From a virus, in IMG/VR virus record IMGVR_UViG_3300036790_000196, positions 1 to 64,000 of that record: 64,000 nt of DNA; one strand, given 5' to 3'. Below the pieces are notes generated by a model, which saw nothing but the letters and a program-made list of their open reading frames with translations, did no database searches and had not been told where the DNA came from. Every line of letters starts with the position of its first letter. Position 1 is the first letter of the stretch. The translations under genes were made by a program, and so were the position numbers. Shown in pieces: positions 9,932 to 51,562 of the stretch.

Positions 9932-10254
9932 GCGCGAAAATGCATAAAGTACGGATCGCCCCTATGGGCAAAGAGGTTTCCGGTTCTCATCCTTTTGAGC
10001 ACTTCGGCTTCAAATGGTGGGTTACGCCGGGGCAGAATAGATCCATCATCTTTGGACCGGGAAGGTACTTCACGGCAACAGAGGAAACCACTGGACAGGC
10101 GATTCCCGGCCTATGGTGCAAGAAGCGTTCCGAGGTAAAGGACCGCGCCATTGTGAAACTAAACCTCGTGGGCGAATCGACGGTTAAGAAGGCCGTTAAC
10201 GGCGTACCGAAGTTACTAGCCACCCGCACCACCCCCGCAGGCGAACCGAAGTGA
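9928..10254 (+). CDS. Hypothetical protein (108 aa)
   Basis: Begins at GTG 9928 in a GTGA overlap and encodes a 108-residue basic protein, mixed alpha/beta by eye, ending TRTTPAGEPK. The segment FEHFGFKWWVTPGQ is Trp/Phe-rich. No family is recognised. Its C-terminal tail resembles that of the gene at 8026. Confidence 0.65.
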   Translation: MSAKMHKVRIAPMGKEVSGSHPFEHFGFKWWVTPGQNRSIIFGPGRYFTATEETTGQAIPGLWCKKRSEVKDRAIVKLNLVGESTVKKAVNGVPKLLATRTTPAGEPK

Positions 10255-10258
10255 GTTT

Positions 10259-10438
10259 ATGAAGCTACACCACGAACCGAATGCGATGACAGAGAGAGAC
10301 CTGAAATCTGAGGAGAAAGAACTGGAGACCCTCCTAAACAACGGCGGGATGACACCAAGAGAAGCGGATCGTCTTGCCGAGGTGCGCCGCGCCCTGAAGA
10401 AGATTTCCAGCCAGAGGAGCTGGATGGCACGCGCATGA
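10259..10438 (+). CDS. 59-residue charged helical protein
   Basis: An open frame from ATG 10259, four bases after the previous TGA, to TGA 10438, which overlaps the next ATG. The product is rich in Glu, Lys and Arg (TERDLKSEEKELETLL, then READRLAEVRRALKK) and likely forms a helical hairpin. Function unknown. Confidence 0.55.
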   Translation: MKLHHEPNAMTERDLKSEEKELETLLNNGGMTPREADRLAEVRRALKKISSQRSWMARA

Positions 10439-11294: not shown

Positions 11295-12404
11295 ATGAAC
11301 ACAGACTCCACACTCGCGGTCGCATCTTACGACCTGATCCCGTCAACGATGGCCGCCGCCATCGACTTCTCCGAGAGGATGGCAAACGCCAAGCTCCTCC
11401 CGGCCCACCTTCAAAAGAGCCCTGCCGACTGCCTGCGCGTCGTCCTCCAGGCCGCACGCTGGCAGATGGACCCCTTCGCCGTGGCCGACAAGACCAGCGT
11501 CATCAGCGGCAAGCTGATGTTCGAGGGGCAGCTCGTGAGTGCCGTCGTCAACGCTCGCGGCAACTTGAAGAAGCGCCTGTCCTACGACTACAAGGGCGAA
11601 GGCAGCAACCGCGTCCTCACGGTATCCGGCACGCTTCAAGGAGAGGACGAGCCGCGCACGATCGAGCTTACCCACGCCCTTGCGACGAAGATCAACCGCA
11701 ACGGCCAGGTTGCCATCAACCCCGACCAGCAGATGTCCTACATCGGTGCCCGCATCTGGGCGCGCCGCCACACGCCGGAACTGATGCTCGGTGTCTATGT
11801 GCCGGACGAGATGGAGCCGGAGCAGCCCGGCGCGGAGCCGACAAACGTCACGCCCGCCCCCGACCGCCCCGACCCGGCGACCCTTCGCAAGCGTGGTCGT
11901 CCGCCGTCCGCCCCCAAGGATGCCATCGACATCCCGGCGACACCCGCAGAGACGCCTGCCGCCGCGCAGGAGCCCGCGAAGGCCGAGAAGCCTGCCGACG
12001 CCCCTGCGCAGCCCGCAACGCCAGCCAAGGGCAAGCGCACCACGCTTGAAAAGGGCGAGAAGCTGACCATTCGCCCCGCCGCAATCGTCTCCGCAGTCGT
12101 GGACGACATTGGCGGCCCGGGCAAGCCCGGCTGCATCGCGGAAATCCGCTCCCCACTCTATGACGGCAAGGTGTACGACATGGCAGGCGCCCGCATGGTC
12201 GCCGGTCCCGACGGCGTGAAGGCCGAGCTTCTCCCCGTGTGGGCGAACGGCGCAGGCGTGGCGCTCGAGGTCGAGGGACGCGGCTCAAAGGCCCACGGCG
12301 TCATCGCCCTCGTGACCAAGGTCACGCCCATCGCGCCGCAGGAGCCCGATAAGCCCAAGGCCGAGGAGCAGGAACAGGGGGGCGGATTGGGGCTGGAGGC
12401 GTAG
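11295..12404 (+). CDS. recT: RecT-family single-strand annealing protein
   Basis: A 369-residue protein. Residues about 15-170 match the RecT-type layout: PSTMAAAIDFSERMANAKLLP, a hydrophobic QAARWQMDPFAVADK segment, and QQMSYIGARIWARRHTPELM followed by GVYVPDE. RecT anneals single strands during phage recombination. After residue 175 there is an Ala/Pro-rich linker and then a beta-rich domain of about 100 residues that I do not recognise. The next genes include an exonuclease that would be its partner. Internal Met at residues 19 and 29 are possible starts. Confidence 0.75.
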   Translation: MNTDSTLAVASYDLIPSTMAAAIDFSERMANAKLLPAHLQKSPADCLRVVLQAARWQMDPFAVADKTSVISGKLMFEGQLVSAVVNARGNLKKRLSYDYKGEGSNRVLTVSGTLQGEDEPRTIELTHALATKINRNGQVAINPDQQMSYIGARIWARRHTPELMLGVYVPDEMEPEQPGAEPTNVTPAPDRPDPATLRKRGRPPSAPKDAIDIPATPAETPAAAQEPAKAEKPADAPAQPATPAKGKRTTLEKGEKLTIRPAAIVSAVVDDIGGPGKPGCIAEIRSPLYDGKVYDMAGARMVAGPDGVKAELLPVWANGAGVALEVEGRGSKAHGVIALVTKVTPIAPQEPDKPKAEEQEQGGGLGLEA

Positions 12405-12407
12405 GCC

Positions 12408-12899
12408 ATGGACACGCCACAATACCGACCGCTCACGGCGGAGGACGGCAACTTTCAAGAGGGGGACGAGCTGCAAGAGACCGGCGGCGCATGGGTTCGC
12501 TCTTATGTCACCGGGTCGCCTATCTGGCATTTGCTCGGAAACCGCAAAGATCATACAGGCACCTACTGCGCCGCCCGCCGCCCGCTCAAGGAAGTCGAGG
12601 CCGCGCCTGCAACCGAGACCCACGCCGATCCCGGCACGCCAGAGCCCGGCGACCACCACTCAATGACGCTCACCAATGGGCCGCTCATCCCCGCCGACGC
12701 AGGCCAGAAGACCATCGAGGAATCCTTCGACCGCCGCCTGCGCGACGAGTTCGCCATGCACGCCATTTACGAGGCGTCGCAGTTTGTCGGCAGCGAGCGC
12801 GAGCCCGACGCGGTTGCAAGGCGGGCGTACAAGATAGCCGATGCCATGATGAAGGAACGCAGGCCGAAGGAACCGCTTACCCAGGAGATTCCCTTCTAA
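12408..12899 (+). CDS. Two-part phage protein (163 aa)
   Basis: The N-terminal third is a small domain with Trp and Tyr residues (YRPLTAEDGNFQEGDELQ). The C-terminal half reads LRDEFAMHAIYEASQF and VARRAYKIADAMMKER, which matches the 'LRDxFAxxAL...AYxxADAMLxER' signature of common small phage proteins. It may be a fusion of two small phage modules. Function unknown. Stop overlaps next start (TAATG). Confidence 0.65.
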   Translation: MDTPQYRPLTAEDGNFQEGDELQETGGAWVRSYVTGSPIWHLLGNRKDHTGTYCAARRPLKEVEAAPATETHADPGTPEPGDHHSMTLTNGPLIPADAGQKTIEESFDRRLRDEFAMHAIYEASQFVGSEREPDAVARRAYKIADAMMKERRPKEPLTQEIPF

Positions 12900-15678: not shown

Positions 15679-17442
15679 ATGCCCTACCTTGAACTGGAGG
15701 AGCCGGAGCCGCCGGAGCCCATTGAGGACGCCGAGGATTCGGCCCTCATGGACTTCACGCCGGGGATCGTGCTCCGCGACTATCAGGAGCGTTGCATCGC
15801 GGCGGTCGAGGCGGGCTGGAAGGAGTTCTCGCGGCAGCTTGTGGACATGCCCACGGGCTCGGGCAAGAGTTCCGTGTTCGCCGCAATCGCCAAGCGCGAG
15901 GTAGCCAAGGGCGGCAAGGTGCTGATTCTCGCCCACCGTGACCGCCTTGTGCGGCAGGCGGCCGGCAGGATCGCCAGCGAGACGGGGCTTGATGTCGATA
16001 TTGAGATGGCAGGCGACTACGCATCTGCCTCGGCCCCGGTCGTCGTCGCCTCGGTGCAAACGCTCTGCAACGAGGCGAGGCTTCTCGGCTTCGAGGACAG
16101 GCATTTCTCGCTGGTCGTCGGCGACGAGGCGCACCACTCCATAAGCCCAAGCTGGCTCAAGGTCATCCACTACTTCAACCACGGGGCGCGAAGCCTCGAC
16201 GACGGCTGGGTGCCCCCGCTTCCAGGTGTCCCCTACCAGCGCAAGGCGAACGTCCTCGGCGTCACGGCGACGCCCGACCTCATGGGCAGGCGCACCCTTG
16301 GGGAACTCTACGAGGCGCTGGCGTTCCGATACACGATCACGGAGGCCGTGCGCGACGGCTGGCTGGTGCCGCTCATAATGAAGTCGATGGCGCTGAAAAT
16401 CGACGTGCGGGGGGTGAAGGTCGGCAAGACGAGCGAGGGGAGCGACTTCACCGACCGCACGCTCGGCAAGCACATCGTCCCGGTGATCGACGCCCTTGCG
16501 GAGCAGCTCTACGTCCTGGCGCACGACCGAAAGACGATGGCCTTTGTCCCGTCCGTTGAATGCGCGGAACTTCTGGCCGACGCCGTGAACCGCCTTGGGA
16601 TGAAGGGAATATGGGTATCCGGCGACACGGAGAAGGATGACGACATCCGAACGCGAAACTTCATGGCGTCGGGGGCCGGTACGGTCCTCTGCAACGCCTC
16701 CATCTACGCCGAGGGCGTGGACTTCCCGGACGTGGACTGCATCATGCACGGGCGGGTAACGAAGTCGCGCTCGCGCTACTGCCAGCAGACCGGGCGGGGC
16801 ACGCGCACCCTCCCCGGCACCGTGGACGGCCTTCCGACGCCGGAACTGCGCCGGGCGGCGATAGCGGCCAGCGCAAAGCCCAATACGCTCCTACTGGACC
16901 CCTTGTGGCTGTCCGACCGTCTCGACATCTGCCAGCCCTACGACCTCGTGACGACCCACCCGAAGGTCCGGGCGATCATGGCCGAGATGGGCGGCGAGGG
17001 GCTGGATCTCGTCAGCATGGAGGCTGCGGCGACGCGGGACTTCATCGCCGCGCTGGAGAAGGAGGCGAAAAGACAGAAGGCGAAGGCTGCGCGAACCATC
17101 GACCCCCTTGGGTGGGCGGTTGACTTGGGGGACGAGAAGATGGCGTCGTATGAACCCGAGACGGAACTGGAGCGCAGGGCGCCCACCGAGGGCATGCTCA
17201 ACTTCCTGAGAAGGCAGCGCATCGACGTGGAGAAGGTTACGTCCTTCGGCCTCGCCAGGGAGATGATAGCCCGCATAACGAACAGGTTCAGGATGGACCT
17301 AGCGACGCCCCACCAGCTCCACTTTCTCGCGCAGCTTGGCTTTGACCGCGAGAAGGCCGTCGTCCTCTCGCAGCGGGACGCCACGGCCACCATCGACGCG
17401 CTGCTAGCCGAAAAGAAGAACCGCCATGCACAACGAAAGTAA
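15679..17442 (+). CDS. SF2 DEAD/DEAH helicase
   Basis: A 587-residue helicase. LRDYQERCI (Q-like motif) precedes the Walker A MPTGSGKSS near residue 58, GDEAHH near 148, GVTATP near 195, and QTGRGTRTLPG near 371. This set fits the superfamily-2 helicases related to UvsW and RadD-like proteins. It would unwind or remodel branched DNA in phage replication or recombination. The C-terminal 150 residues are helical and of no known domain. The next gene starts inside its last codons. Confidence 0.8.
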   Translation: MPYLELEEPEPPEPIEDAEDSALMDFTPGIVLRDYQERCIAAVEAGWKEFSRQLVDMPTGSGKSSVFAAIAKREVAKGGKVLILAHRDRLVRQAAGRIASETGLDVDIEMAGDYASASAPVVVASVQTLCNEARLLGFEDRHFSLVVGDEAHHSISPSWLKVIHYFNHGARSLDDGWVPPLPGVPYQRKANVLGVTATPDLMGRRTLGELYEALAFRYTITEAVRDGWLVPLIMKSMALKIDVRGVKVGKTSEGSDFTDRTLGKHIVPVIDALAEQLYVLAHDRKTMAFVPSVECAELLADAVNRLGMKGIWVSGDTEKDDDIRTRNFMASGAGTVLCNASIYAEGVDFPDVDCIMHGRVTKSRSRYCQQTGRGTRTLPGTVDGLPTPELRRAAIAASAKPNTLLLDPLWLSDRLDICQPYDLVTTHPKVRAIMAEMGGEGLDLVSMEAAATRDFIAALEKEAKRQKAKAARTIDPLGWAVDLGDEKMASYEPETELERRAPTEGMLNFLRRQRIDVEKVTSFGLAREMIARITNRFRMDLATPHQLHFLAQLGFDREKAVVLSQRDATATIDALLAEKKNRHAQRK

Positions 17443-39546: not shown

Positions 39547-41796
39547 TCATGCCGCCTGCGCCCCCGCCGACAGCGCTCCGGCAGGCTTTGCCGCCTGCGT
39601 CATCTGCGCCGGGGCGACGCCGTTGCCGACGTTGCCGATGTCGCTCCCGCCCGCTGGCTGCTCTCCCGGGGGCGCGGACGGGGCCTGCTGCGGCACGATC
39701 ACCTCGTCGGCGTTCGCCTGCGGGTCCAGGATGCGAAGCTGCCTGCGGTAGAGGCTGCACAGGATGACCTGCAAGTTGGGCGGGTTGGTGTAGTAGTCCT
39801 TCACGAGCGCGACCGCCTGCGAGGATAGCTGGAGAATCTGCTGGTTCCTGTGCGTCGTTAGCTCGATGTCGCAGCGGAGGCGAAGGCCCCGAACGTCGTC
39901 CGCCGTCATCATGTCCACCCCGTCCGTCTCGCCCTCGCAGAAGATGCGGAACTCGTCGGGGTCAAGGTTCGCAAGGACGACGCTGATCTCGCGGTTGAGT
40001 ATCCCCGTGAGCGGGTCGGTCAGGTCCTCGAGTATCGGCATGAACAGCTCGTCGCCCGACTGCTCGATCTGCATGATCCCCGTCGCCAGCTTGGCCGACT
40101 GCATCCCGGCCGCCTGATTGTCGTTCGCGTTCGTGACGCCGCTCTCATTCATCGCAAGCTGCATGAAGTACTGGATCATCGTGTGGAGCGCCTCGAACTT
40201 GGTGTCGTTCAGATAGACGACCTCCACGCAGTCCTCGGCCTTCATGTTCTGCTTCTTCGTGTACGTCCCGCCGAAGTTCATCTTGAGCGAGGGGTCGCGG
40301 TCGCCCTCCAGCGTGTTCTTTGGGCTCCAGAAAAGGACGTAGCCCGCGCGGCTCTGGGAGAAGTTCCAGCGGTTCACCATGAGATCCACGATGGTCTGGT
40401 AGCAGTCGAAGTACTCCATGATCCCCTGCCCGTACCAGCGGCCCTCGATGGGCTTGATCCTCACGATCTCGATGGGGCGAAGGCCGTCGGTCGTCACGTT
40501 CGCAACGTGGTCGTAGAAGATGGGCTTCTGGGAAGCCCTGTCCGCGATCAGCATGATGTTCTCCGCGATCCCGTCGCCGTTCGCGTCCCACCAGAGGTAG
40601 AACTCGATGAACTCCGCGACGGGCCCGGGACCGCCGCCGGGGGTGGCCGGGAGCGGCGTCATGGACTCCAGCGGGCGGATGGCAAGGTCCACCGCGGCCT
40701 TGGGCTCCTGGCTGTTCTGGTCCAGCGTGCGAAGGAGCGCGATCATCTTGTGCGTCGCGCTGGCGCGGCCCTGCGGGTTGTCGTCCACCATCCCGCGCTT
40801 CACGATCAAATCCACGAACTCGGCCACCTGCTTGTCGTAGATATGGTAGCAGGTGTCGGCCTCCTGCACGCTTGCCGCCGTCTGGGGGAGGCCAAAGTCC
40901 TTGTAGTAGATGGGCTCGCTTACCGCGCCCTCGAACAGCACCTGCCTGCGGGTGAGGGGCACCTTCTGGTAAACCGGCGCGTCCGGCTGCGGGGTCACGC
41001 CGTCGGAAGCCAATACCTTCGTGCCAAGCCCGTCCTCCTTGTCCTGCCACTTGGCGTCCTCCGTGATGGTGTTGCCCTTCTGGTCGCGCATCGGCGTCAC
41101 CTTTCCGGGCTCGCTGTTGACATCCACCAGCACGCGGGCCTCGGTGTCGAATATCTGGTCGCGCACCACGTAGGTCGTCTTGACCGCGCACTCGCCAAGG
41201 ATGAGCGCCTGCGTGATGGCGCGGCCCATGTTGACCTTCGTCTTTCCCTCCTTGGCCTTCATGCGGCAGTAGCGCTCGATGAGGTCAATCTGCGCGTCCT
41301 CCAGCGGGTCGGCCTGCCCCGGCCACGGCTCGGCGGAAAACCACGGGTCGCTCCCAAAGAGCGCCTTCTTGGCGCGCGCTATCATCTGGGCGCAGATGCG
41401 CCGTGACAGGGGGACCGCGATGTTGGACGACATGAAGATGTTCTCGACGCCCATCGTGTAGGGGCGCCATGACACGTCGTTCATGAAGGTGGCGTCGAAG
41501 CGGCTCCTTTTCCCGAGGAACGTCATCGCCGGGAGAAGCCCCTGCGCCGCCGCCTGAAGGTTCGGCGTCGGCTGGAGGTTGGCCCACCACGTCGGTTGCA
41601 GCGTCTGGTCGCGGCCGAGTTCGTTGCTGATGTCCTTGAAGCGCCGGAACGCATGGTCCAGCATCTGCGTCTCCTGCTCCCGGGTGAGCTTCAGCCCCCC
41701 CTGGAACGGCACCTGCGGCTCCTTCTGGTCGGAGGGTGGCATCGGCCCTGCCGCCTTCGCGGCGTCGTGGATGAAGTCTGCGGTTGGGGAATCCAT
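39547..41796 (-). CDS. Portal protein
   Basis: A 749-residue protein. Typical portal features are a helical N-terminal part, a central EFIEFYLWWDANGDGIAENI segment, WYGQGIMEYFDCYQTIVDLM and NRWNFSQSRAG, and a Gln/Ala/Pro-rich tail. Its size and its place between the terminase group and the head genes fit a podovirus portal, through which DNA is packaged. The start follows the TAA of the giant gene by one base (TAATATG). Confidence 0.75.
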   Translation of the reverse strand: MDSPTADFIHDAAKAAGPMPPSDQKEPQVPFQGGLKLTREQETQMLDHAFRRFKDISNELGRDQTLQPTWWANLQPTPNLQAAAQGLLPAMTFLGKRSRFDATFMNDVSWRPYTMGVENIFMSSNIAVPLSRRICAQMIARAKKALFGSDPWFSAEPWPGQADPLEDAQIDLIERYCRMKAKEGKTKVNMGRAITQALILGECAVKTTYVVRDQIFDTEARVLVDVNSEPGKVTPMRDQKGNTITEDAKWQDKEDGLGTKVLASDGVTPQPDAPVYQKVPLTRRQVLFEGAVSEPIYYKDFGLPQTAASVQEADTCYHIYDKQVAEFVDLIVKRGMVDDNPQGRASATHKMIALLRTLDQNSQEPKAAVDLAIRPLESMTPLPATPGGGPGPVAEFIEFYLWWDANGDGIAENIMLIADRASQKPIFYDHVANVTTDGLRPIEIVRIKPIEGRWYGQGIMEYFDCYQTIVDLMVNRWNFSQSRAGYVLFWSPKNTLEGDRDPSLKMNFGGTYTKKQNMKAEDCVEVVYLNDTKFEALHTMIQYFMQLAMNESGVTNANDNQAAGMQSAKLATGIMQIEQSGDELFMPILEDLTDPLTGILNREISVVLANLDPDEFRIFCEGETDGVDMMTADDVRGLRLRCDIELTTHRNQQILQLSSQAVALVKDYYTNPPNLQVILCSLYRRQLRILDPQANADEVIVPQQAPSAPPGEQPAGGSDIGNVGNGVAPAQMTQAAKPAGALSAGAQAA

Positions 41797-41797
41797 A

Positions 41798-44700
41798 TTA
41801 GTGTACGCCCGCCATGCGGCCTATCTGCTCCCTCACCTTTTTCCTCTCCGTCTCCTCGACCCGGCGAACCTCGTTCTGCACGGCGGCGTCCGTCTTTCCG
41901 TAGAAGCCGGGACGCAGGGCGTCAAGCCGCGCCTTTATGAGGCGACCGCTCACGGTCTTGTAGAAGTTGAACTCCTTGTCGGTCATCGTCCGGTTGCCGA
42001 GCTTCGTCTGGCGCTCCGGCTCGGAGGGCGCGATGTTGCGGTCACTGAGGGCTTTTCGCAGCGGGTCGGCCTTCTGGGCAGAGGCGATGCGCTGCTCCGG
42101 GGAGTAGGTCACGGCGTCGCCGAGGGCGTCGGTTCGGACGGGGAGAGTCCTGCGAAGGAACGGCACCTGCGCCTTGGCGATGTCCTTCATGGACGACGCC
42201 TCGCGCTCGCGGGGGTCGAGCGCCTGATCTATCTGCCGGACCGCCGAAGGGACGACCGTAGAGGAGCCGGTTGCGGCGAGGAAGCGCCCCATCTTGGCAG
42301 CCCCGGTCTTGCCGCTCGCTATCTCGGCCAGGTTGGAAAGCCCCTCCAGCATGGGGGTGTCGACGAAGGATTTGCCAATGCCCGCAACGGCGTCCGCGAC
42401 TTTATTTCCCAGCAGCAGCTGGTCGGGGGTTTTCTCGTAGCGCAGCGCATCTGCCACATTGCCGACGATAGCCATCGGGACGGCGAGCGGAGTGTACATG
42501 CTGTTGAACCATCTCCCGTCCACGCGGAATGAGTGCGGCCTTTTACCCTGTTGCTGCAGCTCGACCCTGTGCGCCATGTCCACCGGCCCGTTTCCTGTTA
42601 TGTCAAAGCCCGTGTCGTCGCCCTTTTTCTTTGAGAGAGCTGCGTGGAGGGTCACACCCATCAGGAGGCTTCCTGCCGCCGCCTTCACCAGCAACCGATT
42701 CCTCTCGTCGGCGTCGGGCATGGAATGAACCCCCTCGGCATCCCGAGTGCCAGCCAAGGCCCGCTTTGCCCCGTATCCAGCCCAATTAACCGACTCGTTG
42801 AGCAGGTTCGTAGGGACCTTCATGAAAGGCAGGAAAGGCTTCAGGATGGGGACGCCTGCGACCTTAACCCTGTTATCCACCCCGTCCTTGATCCAGCGGT
42901 ACATGACACCCATGAGGCCAGTCGGCTCATTGGCATAGACGCTTTCCCTCGAGAACCTGTCGGCAGACGCTGCTGCAGCAGCGCCCTCCGGCGAGGACAA
43001 ACGGTGCTCCTGCATGAGTTGGGCCACGCGGAGCCCCGCGTCGGCACCCTTGAAGCCCTCGCCTTCAGCCTGCTCCTTGAAGCCGTCAAATTGCTCCCGG
43101 GTGATCCCAAGCGTCTCCTTTACCTTGCTGTCAAGGTCCTTGCCCGAGTAGTCGCCCTCCAGAAGCTTCGTCGCCGCGAGGCGGGCATAGGCTTCGCGGG
43201 CCGGGACGGCGAACATCGCCTCCAGCGCCCGGAAGGTGCGCGGCACGTACTTCATGACGCCGGGGTACACCGCGGCCTTTCCCGTGAGATCCTCCAGGTC
43301 GGACATGCGGCGCGGGTCCGGGCTCTTTGCCGTCACGTCGCCCCCCTTGGCCGCGTCGAAGTCGATTGACCCACGCCCGGACTTCATGACGGACGCGGCC
43401 CGCTCCAGCCCCTCTGGCACGCCCGAGAGCCAGCCCTTCAGGAGTTCCGGGGCCTTCGCCGGGTTGGCCGTGATCGCAGCCCCCATCTGCCCGATGCCGT
43501 TCGTGATGTCGCCAAGCGCCTTCACCGGCACCGTTAGCCCGGACAGCATGTTGGCGTACCAGAGGCTTGTGCCGGTGCGAATCGCCTTCGACAGGGTTCC
43601 GGGGTCGCGGGCCTTGTGGAGTTCCGTGGCGAGGTCCAATGTCGCCCTTGCGCGCGAGGCCACATCCGGCGCACGTTCCACGGAGTCGGCGAGGTCGCCT
43701 ATCTTTTGAACCTGCTCCGGCGTGGCCTGCGGCAAATGGAGTTCCTGCACCACGGCGTCGTGGACGTCGGCGCGGGTCATGGCACCAAGATTGGAGAGCG
43801 TCTTGGCCTTCTGGACGGCGGAGAACACCTGCTTCGCCCGCGTGCTGTTGGTGAACTTCTCCTTCAGCCTTTCCAGCGCCTTCTCGCGTTCCTGTGCGTA
43901 GATTTCCTTCGCGCGGTCGGTCAGGTCGCTGGCAAGCCGCGTCGCATCGGCCCCGCTTATCCCTGCGTCCTTCACGAGGGCGTCCGCGATGTCGCCCGCC
44001 TTGATGTCGGTCTTCGTGATGTGCTGGCGGGCAATGTCCGCCGCCTTGTCGCCCATCGCGTCATGCGCGGTCTTGATCGCCTTCGTCAGCAGGCGGTCGC
44101 TCCACGGGCGCAGTTCCAGGTTGGAAAGCTGGGTGTCAACGAGGTCAACCGGAGGTGAGCCTTCCCCGTACTTCTTCGCCATTTCGTCGCGGACGGTCGT
44201 CAGCACTTGACCGTAACGCTCACGGTTGTCCATCGCCTCCTTCATGACCTCCATCGCGGTCGGGGGCGGCTTGCCTTCGGGCCTCTCGGGGAGCAGCCCC
44301 TTGAAGCGACCCTTCATTTCCGCGATGATCCGGTCGGCGAACTCCTTCAGCGGAGCCTGCTCCTTCGGGGGCTCGGCGCTGGAATCGACCAGCTTTATCA
44401 TCTGCGCCGCTGCGTCCTCGCGGTACTTCTGCCAAGCGGACTTGCCGACCTTGAGTTTCCGCAGGCTCTTTCGCATCTCGTCCGATGCCTTGTCGATCGC
44501 GTCCTCCTTGGCCTTCTCAACGGCGTCGCTCGCCTCGTCCAGCGCCTTCTTGCCGTCGTTGCCGAGCTTCCTCTCCTGAGCCTCGGAAACGTCTGACAAG
44601 TGCTGGTCAACGGCGTGGCCGCGCTCCGACTTGCCGATTTGCTGGAACATGGAGATTCCCTGACCGACCTCCGTCGCCTGCGGGGCCTTGACGGTCGAGA

Positions 44701-47700
44701 GCGCCTGACGTGCTCGAAGGGCCGCAGCCTTTTCAGCCGGCGTCTTGGCATCGAAGAACTTCTGGTCCGCCGCCTGCGCGAGCTTCACGTAGATGGCGGT
44801 CTTGACCGGCTCCGGCACGCCGTTGTCGGCCTTGGAGGTGGAGAGACGCAGGGCCTCGTCCGGTCCCTTGGCGTCGATGATGGCCTGCGCGCTGTCGAGG
44901 TCCGGCTGCTGCCCGCGCCTCTGGTAAACCTGCCGCACGATGTCCTCGTTCGCCGTCCGCTCCGTGTCCGGCAGGCTGCGGTAGTAGTTGCCCTTGCCGG
45001 GGGCCTTCTCCGGCTTCTGCGCCTGCGCCGCCTCCTCCGGCGCGTGCTTCATGATCGCGTCGTGCAGGTCTTGCAGGTGCGGGCGAATCTTATCGCCAAA
45101 CTCCTTCACCATCTCGGCGCTCCACTTGGCGAAGTCGCGGACGCCGCGCTCGGCTATTGCGACGCCCTTGACGGCGATGGCTGCGTACTCTTGGGGCGTG
45201 CCGAGGCCGAGATTGCGCGCCTTCTTGCCGATGTCCTTGATTACGCTATCCGCCCACGCCTCGGCCTTGGAGCCTGAGACTACGCCCTTCTCCGGAGTGG
45301 TGACTCCAGCGGCCGGCAATCCGGGTCCTGGCAGCTCGCCTCGATCCCGAACTCCACCAGATCCCCCGGACCCGATTTCCTTTGGGGACAGGGTGATTGG
45401 GGATTCGCCATCCTTTTTCCGCTTGGCGTTGATAATGGACTCAGCCTCGCTGATCCGATCAAGCGCCCCCTGATGGTACTCACCTTCCTTGACATCACGG
45501 AAAGGTAGCACGGCAGGCGAAGAAACGTCAATACCCTTCGGGAGTCCCCAACTGGAGCCCTCGGCCTTCGCTGCCACATTAGCAGTCTTGGACGGGGTTG
45601 TGACTTCCGGCTCGACCTTGTGCTCCGCCAGTTCCTCTGGCGTCAGTTTCGGGATTGCCTTGGTCGGGATTGTCGGGGGCCGCAGTTCCGCGCCGCCAAA
45701 CTTCCGGTCGATCTTCTTCTGAAACGCCTCCAGCGCCTCCTTGACTTTCGGTACACGGAAAGTCCCGTCGCCCGGAACGTCGATTGTTACGGTGGCGGGG
45801 TATTTGTCGTAGAAAGCCTTCTGCGCCGCGTCCTTGTCGGCCAGCGTCTTTGCGCGTTCACCCGCCTTGCCTGCCTCGGCCAAGTCCTTCTCGAAATCGG
45901 GCGCGCTTGGTGCGTCCTTCAACGCCTCCGTGATTGCGTCCCCGATGAACGCCTTCTGCGCCTTGATCTGCTTCGGGGTGGCCAGTTTCGAGACGGCGGC
46001 CTCCGCGTGGGGCGTCGGCGTGATCTTCGTATCCTTGCCGTCCTTCTCCACGACCGCGTGCGGCTGCTCCTCCGCAGGGCGCGTCTCCTTCGGACCCTCG
46101 CCGGTCTTGGCCTTCTCGAAGGCACTGACTTCGGGGAGCAGTTTGCGGACGGGCGCGTCCAGTTGCGTGACGGGAATGTTATCCACGCCGTCCGTCTTGT
46201 CGGCCATCCACTGATGGTGCCCGTCCACGATGTAGCCGTCCTTGGAGACGAGGATCTTCCGGTCGCTCCCCTTGTGCTCACGGGCCGCCTGCACCTTCTC
46301 GGGCGAGAACTCGGCCTGCGTGGGCTTCAGGTCGGCGACCTTCATCATGCGGTTCTTGGAAGCGATGCCCTTCTCCTTGAGGGATTCGACCAGCGCGGGG
46401 CGGTCCTCGCTCTTTACCTGCGGCATCTCGCCCCTCGGCACGTCCAAGGACTTCTCGCTTGCGGGGAACTTCTGCCAGGTGGGCTCGCCTTTCGCAGGCG
46501 TCAGCCCTTCGCCGACGGCTCCGCTGTCACCCCCGGCGGGTGCGCCGGCCCCGGCGGGTTCTGCGGGACGCTCTGCACCTCGTGCATCTGCCGGTGCATT
46601 TGGAACATCCTCTCGTGGTGCGCCGCCTCGTTCCGGTGATACGCCGCCCTCTCGTGGTGCTCCTTCATCCGGCTGTGGTGCGACATTTCCGCGAGGTGGT
46701 TCGGCCTCGACGGCGGCTGCTCCTCCACTGTCCGCTTGTCGAACAGCTTGCGGGTTTTTCGGCTCACCTTGGGGGGCGGCGCCTCGGGCGTTGTCCCCGC
46801 TTTCGCTAGGGCGCTGAACAGTTTCTTGGGCATTGGTTGGTTCTCCTTGTTTGGCCGCCTCGTCGGTCGGCAGTTTGCTGACGTCGATTCCCTGCTTCTC
46901 TAATTCGCTGCGGGTCACGGTGACGCCGCGGGGCTCGCCGGGGAGCGTGACCTGCCAGTGGTCCTCCGGCTGGCCCACGCCCTTCAGCACAGGCTCCTTC
47001 TTGCCGAGGTACGTCACCTTGGCGTCTGGGGGAAGGGAGCCTTTGGCGGCTGCGGCAGGTTTCGCGGCCTCTGCCGGTTTCGTGGCCTCCGCAGGCTTCA
47101 TGCCCTCCTTGAGGATTTCGGCACGAAGGTCGTCCTCCATCTGCGGGGCGTGGGCTTCGGGCTCCGCCGTCCCCGGAGGCGCTTCCTTTGGCGGCGGACC
47201 CTTCGGCGGGGGCGCGGCAGGCTGCGGGGCGGGCTCGGTCGCGGGAGGGGCCTCGGCGGGGGCTTCCGGTGCCTCAACCGGCCCCGCGTGCGGTTCGCCC
47301 TTTGCGAGTCCCTTCGTTCCGTGCGCCGCTGCCGCCGTCATGGCTGCGGAGAGGATGGCCCCGGCGATGGCCTTCGCCTTGTCGGCGCGGGTCGCCTTGG
47401 GGTCATGAAGGGCAGCGTAGGCCGCCTGCGTCTGCTTGAGCGTGTCATGCGCCCCCTCTGCCGTGAAGCCTGCCAGAGCGCCCACCTGCGCGCCCTTTGC
47501 GACCATGGCTAGGCGTGTTCCCGCCGCAAGGTCGCCGACTATGCCAGCACCCCCCGTTGCCGCCATGAGGGCGACGTTGGCGGGCGATGTGAGCCCTGCC
47601 GCGAACTCGCTGGCTGCGTTTGCGATGCCGGGGACGGCCCCCGTGCCATGGGCTTTCGGGATCGTGTAAAGCGCGCCAGTCGTCCCTGCGGACTCGCTGC

Positions 47701-49381
47701 CGATGAGAGGCTTAGGTGATGGGGTCTTTGCATTCGCCTGCATCAAAGCCTCCAGTAATGTCCCGGGCCTCCGGCCCTGCTGCGTCTGCGCCCAGCGGTC
47801 CACGAGGGGCCCGGGGGCCGGCGGAGGGCTGGGCGTTCCTGTCTGCGTTGGAGGCGGGGCGGCAGGAGTGCCCGGCGCGGGAGCAGGGCTGGAACCGGGG
47901 GCGGGCGGCGCTCCACCTGCTGCGGGACCGGCCGGCGGAGGCTCTCCGGGCGGGGGCGTTCCGGGAAGTGCGGGGGCAACCGGCGGGTTCGCCTGCCGCT
48001 GCTGCGCACGCTGCGCGGACATGGCGACACCGGAGGCGGCGCCGCTTGCGTGGTTCGCCTGCGCTATCTGAAGTTGCTGGAGAATCGGGTCCTTCGCGGG
48101 GTCGCCGCCTGCGTTCGTGATCGCCGCCGCTCGCTGGTCGATCGCGTGCTGATAGGCCCCGTGCCTGAAAAGGTCCTGATAGATGGCGTACTGGAGCTTG
48201 GCCTCGGCGTTCGTCTCATAGAGATGGCCGCCCTTCTTCAGCGACGCCGTGAGCGCCTGCCTCTCATTCTCGATGGCTGCCTGCTGCCTTTGCAGCATGG
48301 TAAGCTGCGCCTGCGCTTTATCGGCCTTGGCTGACGGGATCGCGCCGATGCTGGTTCCGAGGATGCCGTTGTCCGTCTCGTTGAGATTCGGGTCGGCCTC
48401 GGCTGCCATCTTCGCCGTCGAAAGCTGGTCGCTCTGGCTTTGCAGGTCGGTGAGGCGTTGGTTCGCCTGCTCCTTGGCGTCCTCCGTCTTGCCCACGACC
48501 ACGGCCATGCCGGAAAGCGCCTCGTTCCACTGGTTCTTGTGGACGTTCTTAAGCGTCTCCCTGGCGGCCTTCGCCGTCTGGTAGTCGGGGCTCTTGGCCA
48601 AATCCGCCGCGTCGCCCGCGGTATGCGTGGTTCCGTCCGATGTGGTGTAATAGAGATTCGTGTCGTTGGCATCACCCGAGGAAAACAGCTTATATCCCCT
48701 GAACTGGCGCTGGCCGTACTGATCCCTTGACTCTTGCGCAGGCTTTCCGGTCTTGGGGTCCACGCTATCAGACCACGGCGTCTTGTCGTAGAGGGGCCGT
48801 CCCGTTCCGGGCTCGAGCACCGGCTGGATGTTGCCCTCGGGGTCGCGGAAGAACTTCTGTCCGTTCGCCCGCATGTCGTTTTCCCTCTGCGTCGCCGTCG
48901 CCACGCGCTGCTGCCTCTGCTGGAGGGCCTGCTGCCTCTCGGCTATCTGCGCCTGCCTCTGGGCAAGCGCGTCCTTCTGGTCCTGCGCCCGCTCCGCTGC
49001 GGCGTACCAGCTCTGCGGCGTGTCGGGCAGGTCGAAGCTGGTCTTGAACGGGTTGGCCTTGAAGAAGGCGTCGCTAAACTGCTTGTCCGCCGCGCCGTAG
49101 GCTTCCTTGTAGTGGTCCTCCGGCGATTGGACCTGCGGCGTGTCCGGTGTTCCGGGAGGGGGGAGTGGGCCGCCTGTGTAGTCTTTGGAGGGCTTCCCGT
49201 AGCCCGCTGCGGCGAAGCTCGCGTCGATGTCGGCCTGCGAACTGCCGGGGGCCTGCTGCGGACCTACCGGGACGCCGCCGCGAGGGGCCTGCGGCGCCTG
49301 CTGTGCGTCCTGCTCCTCGGGCTCCGCGACCGCTGCGGAAGCGCGCGCGTCGTTGTCGGGGTCGTCAGCCGGATCAGCCAT
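41798..49381 (-). CDS. Giant polyvalent protein (2527 aa) with ParB-like domain
   Basis: A 2527-residue protein, the largest here. The N-terminal 430 residues are Gln/Ala-rich and coiled. A Pro-rich linker (about 440-530) is followed by a hydrophobic Ala/Gly segment (about 580-700). At about 1035-1065, RKILVSKDGYIVDGHHQWMA is a ParB-like nuclease/ATPase-type motif. The last third includes WYANMLSGLTVPVKALGDIT, seen in 'large polyvalent protein' domains. Such proteins are packaged in virions and injected with DNA. Position next to portal fits. I see no RNA-polymerase motifs. An out-of-frame gene lies inside (46501-46833). Confidence 0.7.
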   Translation of the reverse strand: MADPADDPDNDARASAAVAEPEEQDAQQAPQAPRGGVPVGPQQAPGSSQADIDASFAAAGYGKPSKDYTGGPLPPPGTPDTPQVQSPEDHYKEAYGAADKQFSDAFFKANPFKTSFDLPDTPQSWYAAAERAQDQKDALAQRQAQIAERQQALQQRQQRVATATQRENDMRANGQKFFRDPEGNIQPVLEPGTGRPLYDKTPWSDSVDPKTGKPAQESRDQYGQRQFRGYKLFSSGDANDTNLYYTTSDGTTHTAGDAADLAKSPDYQTAKAARETLKNVHKNQWNEALSGMAVVVGKTEDAKEQANQRLTDLQSQSDQLSTAKMAAEADPNLNETDNGILGTSIGAIPSAKADKAQAQLTMLQRQQAAIENERQALTASLKKGGHLYETNAEAKLQYAIYQDLFRHGAYQHAIDQRAAAITNAGGDPAKDPILQQLQIAQANHASGAASGVAMSAQRAQQRQANPPVAPALPGTPPPGEPPPAGPAAGGAPPAPGSSPAPAPGTPAAPPPTQTGTPSPPPAPGPLVDRWAQTQQGRRPGTLLEALMQANAKTPSPKPLIGSESAGTTGALYTIPKAHGTGAVPGIANAASEFAAGLTSPANVALMAATGGAGIVGDLAAGTRLAMVAKGAQVGALAGFTAEGAHDTLKQTQAAYAALHDPKATRADKAKAIAGAILSAAMTAAAAHGTKGLAKGEPHAGPVEAPEAPAEAPPATEPAPQPAAPPPKGPPPKEAPPGTAEPEAHAPQMEDDLRAEILKEGMKPAEATKPAEAAKPAAAAKGSLPPDAKVTYLGKKEPVLKGVGQPEDHWQVTLPGEPRGVTVTRSELEKQGIDVSKLPTDEAAKQGEPTNAQETVQRPSESGDNARGAAPQGEPKNPQAVRQADSGGAAAVEAEPPRGNVAPQPDEGAPREGGVSPERGGAPREDVPNAPADARGAERPAEPAGAGAPAGGDSGAVGEGLTPAKGEPTWQKFPASEKSLDVPRGEMPQVKSEDRPALVESLKEKGIASKNRMMKVADLKPTQAEFSPEKVQAAREHKGSDRKILVSKDGYIVDGHHQWMADKTDGVDNIPVTQLDAPVRKLLPEVSAFEKAKTGEGPKETRPAEEQPHAVVEKDGKDTKITPTPHAEAAVSKLATPKQIKAQKAFIGDAITEALKDAPSAPDFEKDLAEAGKAGERAKTLADKDAAQKAFYDKYPATVTIDVPGDGTFRVPKVKEALEAFQKKIDRKFGGAELRPPTIPTKAIPKLTPEELAEHKVEPEVTTPSKTANVAAKAEGSSWGLPKGIDVSSPAVLPFRDVKEGEYHQGALDRISEAESIINAKRKKDGESPITLSPKEIGSGGSGGVRDRGELPGPGLPAAGVTTPEKGVVSGSKAEAWADSVIKDIGKKARNLGLGTPQEYAAIAVKGVAIAERGVRDFAKWSAEMVKEFGDKIRPHLQDLHDAIMKHAPEEAAQAQKPEKAPGKGNYYRSLPDTERTANEDIVRQVYQRRGQQPDLDSAQAIIDAKGPDEALRLSTSKADNGVPEPVKTAIYVKLAQAADQKFFDAKTPAEKAAALRARQALSTVKAPQATEVGQGISMFQQIGKSERGHAVDQHLSDVSEAQERKLGNDGKKALDEASDAVEKAKEDAIDKASDEMRKSLRKLKVGKSAWQKYREDAAAQMIKLVDSSAEPPKEQAPLKEFADRIIAEMKGRFKGLLPERPEGKPPPTAMEVMKEAMDNRERYGQVLTTVRDEMAKKYGEGSPPVDLVDTQLSNLELRPWSDRLLTKAIKTAHDAMGDKAADIARQHITKTDIKAGDIADALVKDAGISGADATRLASDLTDRAKEIYAQEREKALERLKEKFTNSTRAKQVFSAVQKAKTLSNLGAMTRADVHDAVVQELHLPQATPEQVQKIGDLADSVERAPDVASRARATLDLATELHKARDPGTLSKAIRTGTSLWYANMLSGLTVPVKALGDITNGIGQMGAAITANPAKAPELLKGWLSGVPEGLERAASVMKSGRGSIDFDAAKGGDVTAKSPDPRRMSDLEDLTGKAAVYPGVMKYVPRTFRALEAMFAVPAREAYARLAATKLLEGDYSGKDLDSKVKETLGITREQFDGFKEQAEGEGFKGADAGLRVAQLMQEHRLSSPEGAAAAASADRFSRESVYANEPTGLMGVMYRWIKDGVDNRVKVAGVPILKPFLPFMKVPTNLLNESVNWAGYGAKRALAGTRDAEGVHSMPDADERNRLLVKAAAGSLLMGVTLHAALSKKKGDDTGFDITGNGPVDMAHRVELQQQGKRPHSFRVDGRWFNSMYTPLAVPMAIVGNVADALRYEKTPDQLLLGNKVADAVAGIGKSFVDTPMLEGLSNLAEIASGKTGAAKMGRFLAATGSSTVVPSAVRQIDQALDPREREASSMKDIAKAQVPFLRRTLPVRTDALGDAVTYSPEQRIASAQKADPLRKALSDRNIAPSEPERQTKLGNRTMTDKEFNFYKTVSGRLIKARLDALRPGFYGKTDAAVQNEVRRVEETERKKVREQIGRMAGVH
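46501..46833 (-). CDS. Nested out-of-frame gene inside the polyvalent gene
   Basis: A 110-residue product from ATG 46833 to a stop at 46501, read in another frame of the same strand as the giant gene. AAGGAG lies nine bases upstream of the ATG. The product is His/Arg/Glu-rich and helical (MSHHSRMKEHHERAAYHRNE and HHERMFQMHRQMHEV), whereas the host frame there is low-complexity Ala/Pro/Gly/Glu. The His-rich helix resembles a small phage-associated family. It could be a capsid- or membrane-associated protein. Confidence 0.5.
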   Translation of the reverse strand: MPKKLFSALAKAGTTPEAPPPKVSRKTRKLFDKRTVEEQPPSRPNHLAEMSHHSRMKEHHERAAYHRNEAAHHERMFQMHRQMHEVQSVPQNPPGPAHPPGVTAEPSAKG

Positions 49382-49723: not shown

Positions 49724-51562
49724 CTAACTGAACTGCCCCGGCAAGCCCTGCGCGCCGCCGATGATCGGCAGCAGGTCCGGCGGGATGTACGACATGCCCG
49801 CGTTGGGGTTGAAGATGGTCGCGTGCTCGATGAGGAGGAGGCCCAAGGCTAGGCTGAACACACTGTCGTCCTTGTGGCCCTCGGCGGCTTCGCTTCGGCC
49901 ATTGGCCTTGCGGATGAAGTTCTCGCACTCTCTGAGCGCAGTTTCGTCCCAGATGCGAACGCCCCCTCCCGGCTCGTCCCAGTCGCGTATCGCCGCCGCA
50001 AGGCACTCGATGGCCCGTTCGCGGCTCTTTTCCATCGTCAGGTAGCCGTAAGCCTTGGTGGTCTTGAACTCGGTCTGGTTGAAGACCTCCCTCATGTAGA
50101 GATCGGCCCCGCGCTGCTTCAGGAGCTCCGTCAGCCCCCGGTCCTGATTCATCTCGACCACGATCTTGCAGCCGGAACTGTCCCCGTAGTGCCGCGCCAG
50201 CCGCCAGATGGTCTCCTCTAGAACGTCGATGTCCCACCGGCAGGGGACGACGCGCGCCACCGCGGCAGGCGGGTTCCACTTGCCGGTCCCGTCCTGAAAG
50301 CCCCCCTGCATGACGAAGACGCCGTGGAAGTCGGGGTCCTTGCCGCTCGCCTGCATGGCCCCCGTCATGGGATCAACGGACAGGATATACCGGCGCATCG
50401 GCATCGGCCGCTCAAAGAGGATCACCTTCGCCTCCAAGGGGTCCGTCTGGTGGAAGACGGGCCTTCCCTGCGCCTCCTGGAGCGTGCCGTAGAGCGGCAC
50501 CCGCTCGTGCATCCGGTCGCGCCGGATACTGAGCCCGCTGCGGCTGAAGCGCATGTTGCCCGACTTCATGAAGGCGTCCTGCCAAGAGTGCGGGTAGTCG
50601 CGGTCGAAGATGAGGCGGTCCTTGCCGCACTCCTTGGCGATGGCGTAGCGCCTCCACGCCAGTTGCTCCCATGCGTCGAAGTCGGTCACGCTTTCCCCGA
50701 GGCGCTGGACGCCGGATTCGTCGATGCGCCCGTAGCGGGAGAGCAGCGTCTTCTCCCCGTCGAAGTCGGGGTCGCTGTCCAAGGTGGAGCGGACGACCTC
50801 CTTCTGGGGCTCGGTGAGGCGCATCGTGGAGTCGCCGAACTCGAACCACGGGCTGAAGACCCGCACGTAGTCGCCGGGCATGATCTCTTTCGCGCCGGAC
50901 AGGAAATCCTCGGCGTCGGTCGCCTCGATCCAACGCTCGTGGAAGGACCCACTCGCTCCCTCCGCCGACGATTCGAGGAAGACGACGCTGTTGGGGATTA
51001 GCGGCACGCACTTCAGGATGTTCGCCAAGACCGTCGGCGCGTTGGCGACGCCGTAGCTGGACCAGCGTGCAACCTCGGTCGCGTGCAGCACCTGGAAGGT
51101 GGACGAGATGCCGGCCAATTTGTCGCCCGCCGTCTCGCTCGTCAGCCTGCTTCCATTCGTCCATTCGCCGAAGGAGTCGTGGATCTTGCCAGAGTTGCCC
51201 CAGTTGAACGAGTCGTTGTCGTTGTACGTCTGGAGAATCGACCAGAGGCTGTTCGTCTGGCTGTACTGGCCGCCGATGACGCAGACGCTGGCCGCGTGGC
51301 GCCGCATCCAGTGGTAGTCCTCGGCCCCGAAGTAGGTGGTGCTCCCCTTCTGGCGGGGCTTTAGGCCGATGACGCGCAGCGGCAGGCCCAGCTCCTCCAT
51401 GCGCCCAAGGACGCGCCGGATGAGGCGCTGGAGGTGGTTCTGCGTCGGGCTTATGAGCTTCCTGTCCTTGTCCCAAATCTTCGCGCAGCCGGACTCAAAC
51501 CAGACGCCGCAGTCCTCGCGGATGGCGTGGTCGATGAGCGCGCGCTCGGCGGTTTTGGTCAT
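49724..51562 (-). CDS. terL: Terminase large subunit
   Basis: A 612-residue protein. The Walker A-like KPRQKGST at residues 68-75, Walker B VVFLES near 193-198, and nuclease residues SVDPMTG near 393, VEMNQD near 470 and HKDDSV near 561 give the full ATPase-nuclease layout of phage terminases. GGQYSQTNSLWSIL and the HATEVARW block fit a podovirus type. It packages DNA through the portal. ATGA links it to the acetyltransferase gene upstream. Confidence 0.85.
   Translation of the reverse strand: MTKTAERALIDHAIREDCGVWFESGCAKIWDKDRKLISPTQNHLQRLIRRVLGRMEELGLPLRVIGLKPRQKGSTTYFGAEDYHWMRRHAASVCVIGGQYSQTNSLWSILQTYNDNDSFNWGNSGKIHDSFGEWTNGSRLTSETAGDKLAGISSTFQVLHATEVARWSSYGVANAPTVLANILKCVPLIPNSVVFLESSAEGASGSFHERWIEATDAEDFLSGAKEIMPGDYVRVFSPWFEFGDSTMRLTEPQKEVVRSTLDSDPDFDGEKTLLSRYGRIDESGVQRLGESVTDFDAWEQLAWRRYAIAKECGKDRLIFDRDYPHSWQDAFMKSGNMRFSRSGLSIRRDRMHERVPLYGTLQEAQGRPVFHQTDPLEAKVILFERPMPMRRYILSVDPMTGAMQASGKDPDFHGVFVMQGGFQDGTGKWNPPAAVARVVPCRWDIDVLEETIWRLARHYGDSSGCKIVVEMNQDRGLTELLKQRGADLYMREVFNQTEFKTTKAYGYLTMEKSRERAIECLAAAIRDWDEPGGGVRIWDETALRECENFIRKANGRSEAAEGHKDDSVFSLALGLLLIEHATIFNPNAGMSYIPPDLLPIIGGAQGLPGQFS

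Follow-up and report, generated by a model that had tools for sequence, protein, structure and literature searches.

We find that a 110-codon open reading frame in the window, the whole stretch of viral DNA analysed here (one virus record of 64,974 bases), lies wholly inside a giant polyvalent virion gene in the +1 frame, and we are confident that it is a genuine small gene with independent internal initiation. Its standing as a gene is very likely, judging from its conserved start, stop and frame, the selection acting on it, the read-through of the host frame and the recurrence of such genes in other phages; its translation, its origin by capture and its function we infer. The window gene very probably belongs to a recurrent class of unannotated genes.

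A nested open reading frame and its host gene

The frame is complete from start to stop within the host gene, on the same strand and in another register (Table 1). The sequence-only reading had described an ATG at 46833, preceded nine bases upstream by AAGGAG and opening a 110-codon frame; the sequence bears out each of these points, gives the offset as +1 and ends the TGA stop codon at 46501. The minus-strand sequence reads ...AAACAAGGAGAACCAACCAATGCCC..., and the arrangement AAGGAG-9 nt-ATG is conserved in the window and its relatives. Across the window's ATG the host codons are AAT-GCC, so that a change at the third codon position leaves the host protein unaltered. Structure prediction leaves the SD-ATG segment unpaired. 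The product of 110 amino acids (MPKKLFSALAKAG...HHERAAYHRNEAAHHERM...AEPSAKG) had been read as having a helical part rich in His, Glu and Arg, against a disordered Ala/Pro/Gly/Glu host frame, and this description of the two frames was right: an AlphaFold2 model from an alignment of only 3 sequences predicts a single long helix at residues 52-87 (pLDDT ~83-90). The product contains no Cys and no hydrophobic signal, and so has neither the signal peptide nor the lipobox of an Rz1-type o-spanin. A search for homologues, proposed in the same reading, returned this HHER-type product in two very close contigs, L003 and L004, and in none beyond them; comparison with cultured phages, Pfam and PHROGs gave no significant match.

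Table 1. Coordinates of the nested gene, its host gene and the neighbouring genes in the window.
Feature	Position	Strand	Description
Nested gene	46501..46833	-	110 codons, +1 relative to the host frame; start and stop kept in L003 and L004
Translation initiation region	46834..46850	-	AAGGAG at 46843-46848, 9-nt spacer AACCAACCA, then ATG
Host-frame stretch over the nested gene	46501..46834	-	Low-complexity Ala/Pro/Gly/Glu linker with atypical codon composition (GC3 0.48)
Giant polyvalent ORF (host gene)	41798..49381	-	2527 codons, between terminase and portal; matches to phrog_2859, phrog_11358 and phrog_6651
Large terminase subunit	49724..51562	-	Upstream of the giant gene; query for finding relatives
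Portal protein	39547..41796	-	Directly downstream of the giant gene

The host gene has the features of a polyvalent/DarB-like gene, being a giant multidomain ORF related to DarB-like/PLxRFG proteins with a ParB-like segment just downstream of the nested gene and a C-terminal part that resembles internal virion proteins. By profile search it is not a spanin. Its parts other than the nested stretch are widely conserved. About 300 bp of the giant gene (window 45307-45603) form an in-frame insertion that is missing from L003 and L004. The terminase of L004 (L004:3245-6103) has 952 amino acids, compared with 612, and carries an intein-like insert that starts CFDDTTEILTDKGWRLF and is absent in the window and L003.

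We rejected ORF length together with an SD as evidence for a nested gene, since this is too weak: synonymous shuffling of the host gene yields an SD-ATG ORF of at least the observed length in 223 of 1000 cases (22%). Length, SD and the observed switch in coding composition were together matched by none (0/1000). At codon positions 1, 2 and 3 the G+C content of the nested frame is 0.66/0.48/0.89. Over these bases the host frame has 0.88/0.66/0.48, while outside them it has the normal pattern (0.71/0.54/0.80 upstream, 0.65/0.45/0.83 downstream). GC3 over the nested ORF is therefore 0.89 in the nested frame versus 0.48 in the host frame, and the switch coincides exactly with the ORF. Scored by the phage's own codon usage, the nested frame has +0.07 bits/codon and the host frame -1.02, compared with 0.06 and 0.48 bits/codon for the host frame on the two sides of the nested ORF. 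Over this stretch the normal coding signature belongs to the nested frame, while the giant frame is abnormal in composition and changes faster.

Selection on the nested frame in close relatives

The nested orthologue is identical at the amino acid level in L004 (100%) and 88-90% identical in L003, where it has an in-frame 3-base deletion; start and stop are kept in both. The host gene holds eight +1 ORFs of at least 40 codons, and the nested ORF is the only one whose ATG and stop are both kept in both relatives. Between the window and L003, host-synonymous codon changes number 2/110 over the nested ORF and 273/1912 elsewhere (p=2e-5), alongside 18 host-frame amino-acid changes over the nested ORF; host changes within it fall on positions 1 and 2 rather than on position 3 (odds 0.14, p=1.7e-6). 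For L004 the corresponding counts are 0/111 and 256/1360 (p=3e-10), and all four differences aligned in the nested reading frame are at nested third positions; in the window clade the conserved block reaches ~130 bp upstream of the nested ATG, and host constraint or recent exchange may therefore account for some of the low divergence. The sequence-only reading had claimed a real overprinted gene and pointed to a synonymous-site comparison over 46501-46833. Host-synonymous change is strongly reduced there relative to L003 and L004 and the start, stop and frame are kept, which supports the claim of a real gene. Selection on the nested frame is found in this group and in other groups.

Nested genes in the wider clade

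Terminase-based searches for relatives yielded 33 loci, and a terminase-alignment scan of bacterial and archaeal genomes found no relative. Where the giant ORF is covered, a nested ORF with an SD and an ATG, always +1, occurs in L009, L012, L017/L018, L020 and L050, whose terminases are 54-59% identical. In six clade phages the giant ORF that follows the terminase contains a nested gene whose SD-ATG is similar; the frame is always +1, and the products differ. Start regions of the form GGAGAA-x-CCAATG, similar to that of the window, are present in L009, L017, L020 and L050. Residues 783-868 of the window host protein align with 1099-1181 of the L050 host protein (37%), each segment running up to the nested start, and between L009 and L017 the alignment spans the nested start. 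Because these host alignments reach or cross the nested start, the slot is homologous in the window, L050, L009 and L017; for L012 and L020 its correspondence is suggested by the SD-ATG context and by position.

The nested proteins of L009, L017 and L050 are 57-77% identical in aligned columns. That of L012 has 60 residues and that of L020 has 50, with a C-terminal part in common with the L009 protein. The motif [VIT][RK][RKH]LF is present in all nested products of the clade, including that of the window; this short link between the window product and the others is suggestive only and could be due to chance. The family and function of the window product would have to be read from the slot and this motif.

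Differences between L017 and L050 number 19, 8 and 40 at nested positions 1, 2 and 3 (p=3e-6), and those between L009 and L017 number 26, 17 and 47 (p=2e-4). In the same columns, identity is 77% in the nested frame versus 48% in the host frame for L017/L050, and 61% versus 28% for L009/L017. In both pairs the nested frame is the constrained one. The giant gene of L016, which continues in L045, has no recognisable nested gene, indicating that the nested gene is dispensable or replaceable. Among the distant giant genes (L021, L027, L028, L032 and L038), several of them cut by contig ends, we mostly found no clear nested gene. The coding strand of the giant ORF in L012 contains a complete tRNA-Met gene (L012:15400-15474; anticodon CAT, Rfam 63 bits) that is translated through.

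The host frame, too, is kept open by selection. The chance of its being stop-free over the required length is 0.31 in the window, a value uninformative by itself, 0.10 in L009, 0.22 in L012 and 0.23 in L020, and in L017 the host frame is stop-free compared with 0/3686 control windows. Multiplied over these five lineages, the chance is ~4e-7, a product that treats overlapping windows and lineages as independent.

A gene family that fills the slot and also occurs elsewhere

The N-terminal parts of three nested products match phrog_2423 (L009, E 2.7e-8; L017, 3.5e-9; L050, 2.9e-8), a family to which they are related at some divergence. These slot genes of relatives also match Pfam DUF6496, only below its cut-off. 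No match to the phrog_2423/DUF6496-like profile was obtained for the window product, and a Foldseek search with a low-confidence model of the L017 protein returned none. Elsewhere, phrog_2423 genes stand alone near portal or coat genes or supply the N-terminal leader of head maturation proteases. For instance, such proteases of Acinetobacter phages LZ35 and AP22 and of a Plectonema phage (L085, L086 and L087) begin with this module, which makes up their first ~38 residues. In L081, an unrelated phage, a phrog_2423 gene (E 1.9e-15) is nested at +1 in a long ORF, and the stretch examined has no terminase or portal similarity to the window. An overlap in L084 was dropped as a nested case, being an ordinary stand-alone gene. 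The window thus resembles this family in that its members fill the corresponding slot in L009, L017 and L050 and one is nested in L081; it differs in that its own product lacks a family match and in that the family elsewhere stands alone or leads a protease.

Nested genes in other phages, including cultured ones

Giant ORFs with other nested genes also occur in phages whose terminases are 31% identical. L030 and G017 have one in common (45-48% identity), and L031 and G018 have another (89%). The ORF of G018 (L100), of at least 5210 codons, contains three nested ORFs with a composition switch (reverse complement 10204-10404, 12355-12696 and 16024-16179), and one of these candidates has a strong AAGGAG site.

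When cultured phages were scanned under one fixed rule, nested ORFs emerged within the DarB-like gene of Burkholderia phage BcepMigl and the giant ORF of Pseudomonas phage Itty13. The same scan gave one weak match in 92 kb of control genes of the clade, and none in the giant genes of Klebsiella phage ZX1 and Pseudomonas phage LKA5. Matches on antisense ORFs of Itty13 were discarded. The public record of this phage has three long antisense CDS over an evident giant ORF of 4108 codons (L110, + strand, from 11818). The BcepMigl nested protein is kept in BcepIL02, DC1, CSP3 and JC1, and in this group both frames change at similar rates. The Itty13 nested protein is kept at about 45-57% in Klebsiella phages LASTA, SJM3 and SopranoGao, Erwinia phages Pavtok, PEp14 and Stean, Vibrio phage VvAW1, Agrobacterium phage Atu_ph08 and others; for the +1 nested homologues of LASTA, Pavtok, VvAW1, Atu_ph08 and Itty13 identity is 41-59%. 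Where the frame was checked (DC1, JC1, LASTA, Pavtok, VvAW1 and Atu_ph08), the match lies at +1 relative to the annotated giant CDS and is itself unannotated, as are the nested genes of BcepMigl and Itty13. The SD-ATG at the nested start is weak in LASTA and Pavtok. In Sinorhizobium phage PBC5 (L115:2767-9309), a shorter DarB-like protein ends in a C-terminal tail that corresponds, in frame, to the nested protein of Itty13, LASTA and Pavtok. This is either a real fusion or an old sequencing error; an SD-like stretch and an ATG are also present at the point of the nested start.

Discussion

Several explanations other than a captured gene could account for these observations. That the frame is a chance opening in a GC-rich gene, conserved only through conservation of the host protein, is suggested by the abundance of long alternative ORFs here and by the shuffles that yield an SD-ATG ORF of such length. 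Host-frame conservation, however, can produce neither the composition switch, nor the loss of host-synonymous change while host non-synonymous change goes on, nor the conserved start and stop, and we give this explanation almost no credence. We judge equally improbable a relic, that is, a former domain of the giant protein now out of frame through compensating indels. PBC5, where the sequence is in frame, speaks for it, but relics decay, and the nested-frame amino acids remain 41-77% identical between distant phages with changes commonest at nested third positions. The in-frame tail in PBC5 would equally fit programmed frameshifting in the giant gene, yielding a truncated polyvalent protein with a tail from the nested frame. 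Yet ribosomes would have to shift by +1 (or -2) to enter the nested frame, which in L017 and L020 offers only ~10-12 open codons ahead of the ATG, and the SD-ATG, weak as it is in LASTA and Pavtok, is kept at the start across lineages; PBC5 itself has such a start, and its old sequence may hold frame errors. We therefore consider frameshifting very unlikely, if a little less so than the preceding two.

The most serious alternative, though still an unlikely one, is classical overprinting, in which the giant frame is older and acquisition of an SD and an ATG created the nested gene de novo within it, as is usually assumed for Rz1-like genes. The orphan status of the HHER-type product and the wide conservation of the other parts of the giant gene speak for it. 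Against it, codon composition is normal in the nested frame and abnormal in the host frame, the slot gene of L009, L017 and L050 comes from a family with stand-alone members, and the giant frame of L012 likewise reads through a complete tRNA-Met gene.

We propose instead that the small gene was captured, or engulfed, by the giant reading frame rather than born within it, an origin that we infer because of the composition, the stand-alone occurrence of phrog_2423 elsewhere and the tRNA-Met gene read through in L012. Small genes would occupy disordered linkers of giant phage genes, and the stop-free giant frame would read through them as filler. The +1 register may follow from base composition: the first codon position of the giant frame is the G/C-rich third position of the nested frame, where T would be rare, and because every stop codon needs a T, stops should be rare in the giant frame and this register is expected. 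Stop-free control frequencies fit this idea in the window (0.31 vs 0.05) and L030 (0.21 vs 0.005), but not in L009 and L020. A ribosome would start at the predicted unpaired internal SD-ATG on the head-gene mRNA and make the small protein independently of the giant one. Since phrog_2423-like genes lie by portal or coat genes or begin proteases, and the host genes belong to the virion module or border it, the likeliest role for the product is that of a small helical accessory, produced alongside the giant protein and serving either head assembly or the giant protein that is ejected. More broadly, there is perhaps an even chance that linkers of giant genes serve as landing pads across tailed phages, for cassettes (mostly protein genes, once a tRNA) that are captured in the register where stops are rare, interchanged at a homologous slot and expressed as accessories from the giant gene's own mRNA, by engulfment and not by de novo overprinting.

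In the Rz/Rz1 spanins of lambdoid phages, Rz1 is complete within Rz on the same strand, in another frame and with its own ribosome-binding site. The sequence-only reading had likened the window gene to this pair, and the likeness holds for the layout: strand, complete enclosure, different frame and own SD. It does not extend to the direction of overprinting, which appears reversed, since here the nested frame and not the host frame has the normal coding signature; in addition, the product is neither a lipoprotein nor a spanin, the gene around it is a giant virion/polyvalent one and the content of the slot varies between phages. The host gene resembles the polyvalent/DarB-like PLxRFG proteins (PMC5512222) in being giant and multidomain, with a ParB-like segment and a virion-associated region. 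A text search of that paper (Iyer et al. 2017) gave no description of out-of-frame genes within polyvalent genes. Ms6 lysA (PMC3111421) and RpnS in RpnL (PMC10327210) also give a second product of one gene by internal initiation; however, their internal starts are in frame, so that the product shares the host-protein sequence, whereas the window gene is out of frame and unrelated to the host protein. In the open-access literature searched, we found no description of out-of-frame genes inside these giant genes.

Small genes appear to hide regularly inside giant phage genes. Because gene callers tend to suppress such nested ORFs, the class lacks annotation even in phages whose sequences are years old (BcepMigl, LASTA, Pavtok and VvAW1). 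Overlapping genes are usually explained as new genes born within old ones, but several independent cases here point in the opposite direction, to small genes with a normal coding signature and a giant frame running over them. The slot keeps its position while its content changes, and so behaves as a cargo site inside coding sequence. As the class is present in cultured phages, the expression, necessity and location of its products are directly testable. If the landing-pad reading is true, phages would possess a hidden layer of genes, systematically missed by annotation, whose origin was engulfment and not de novo overprinting.
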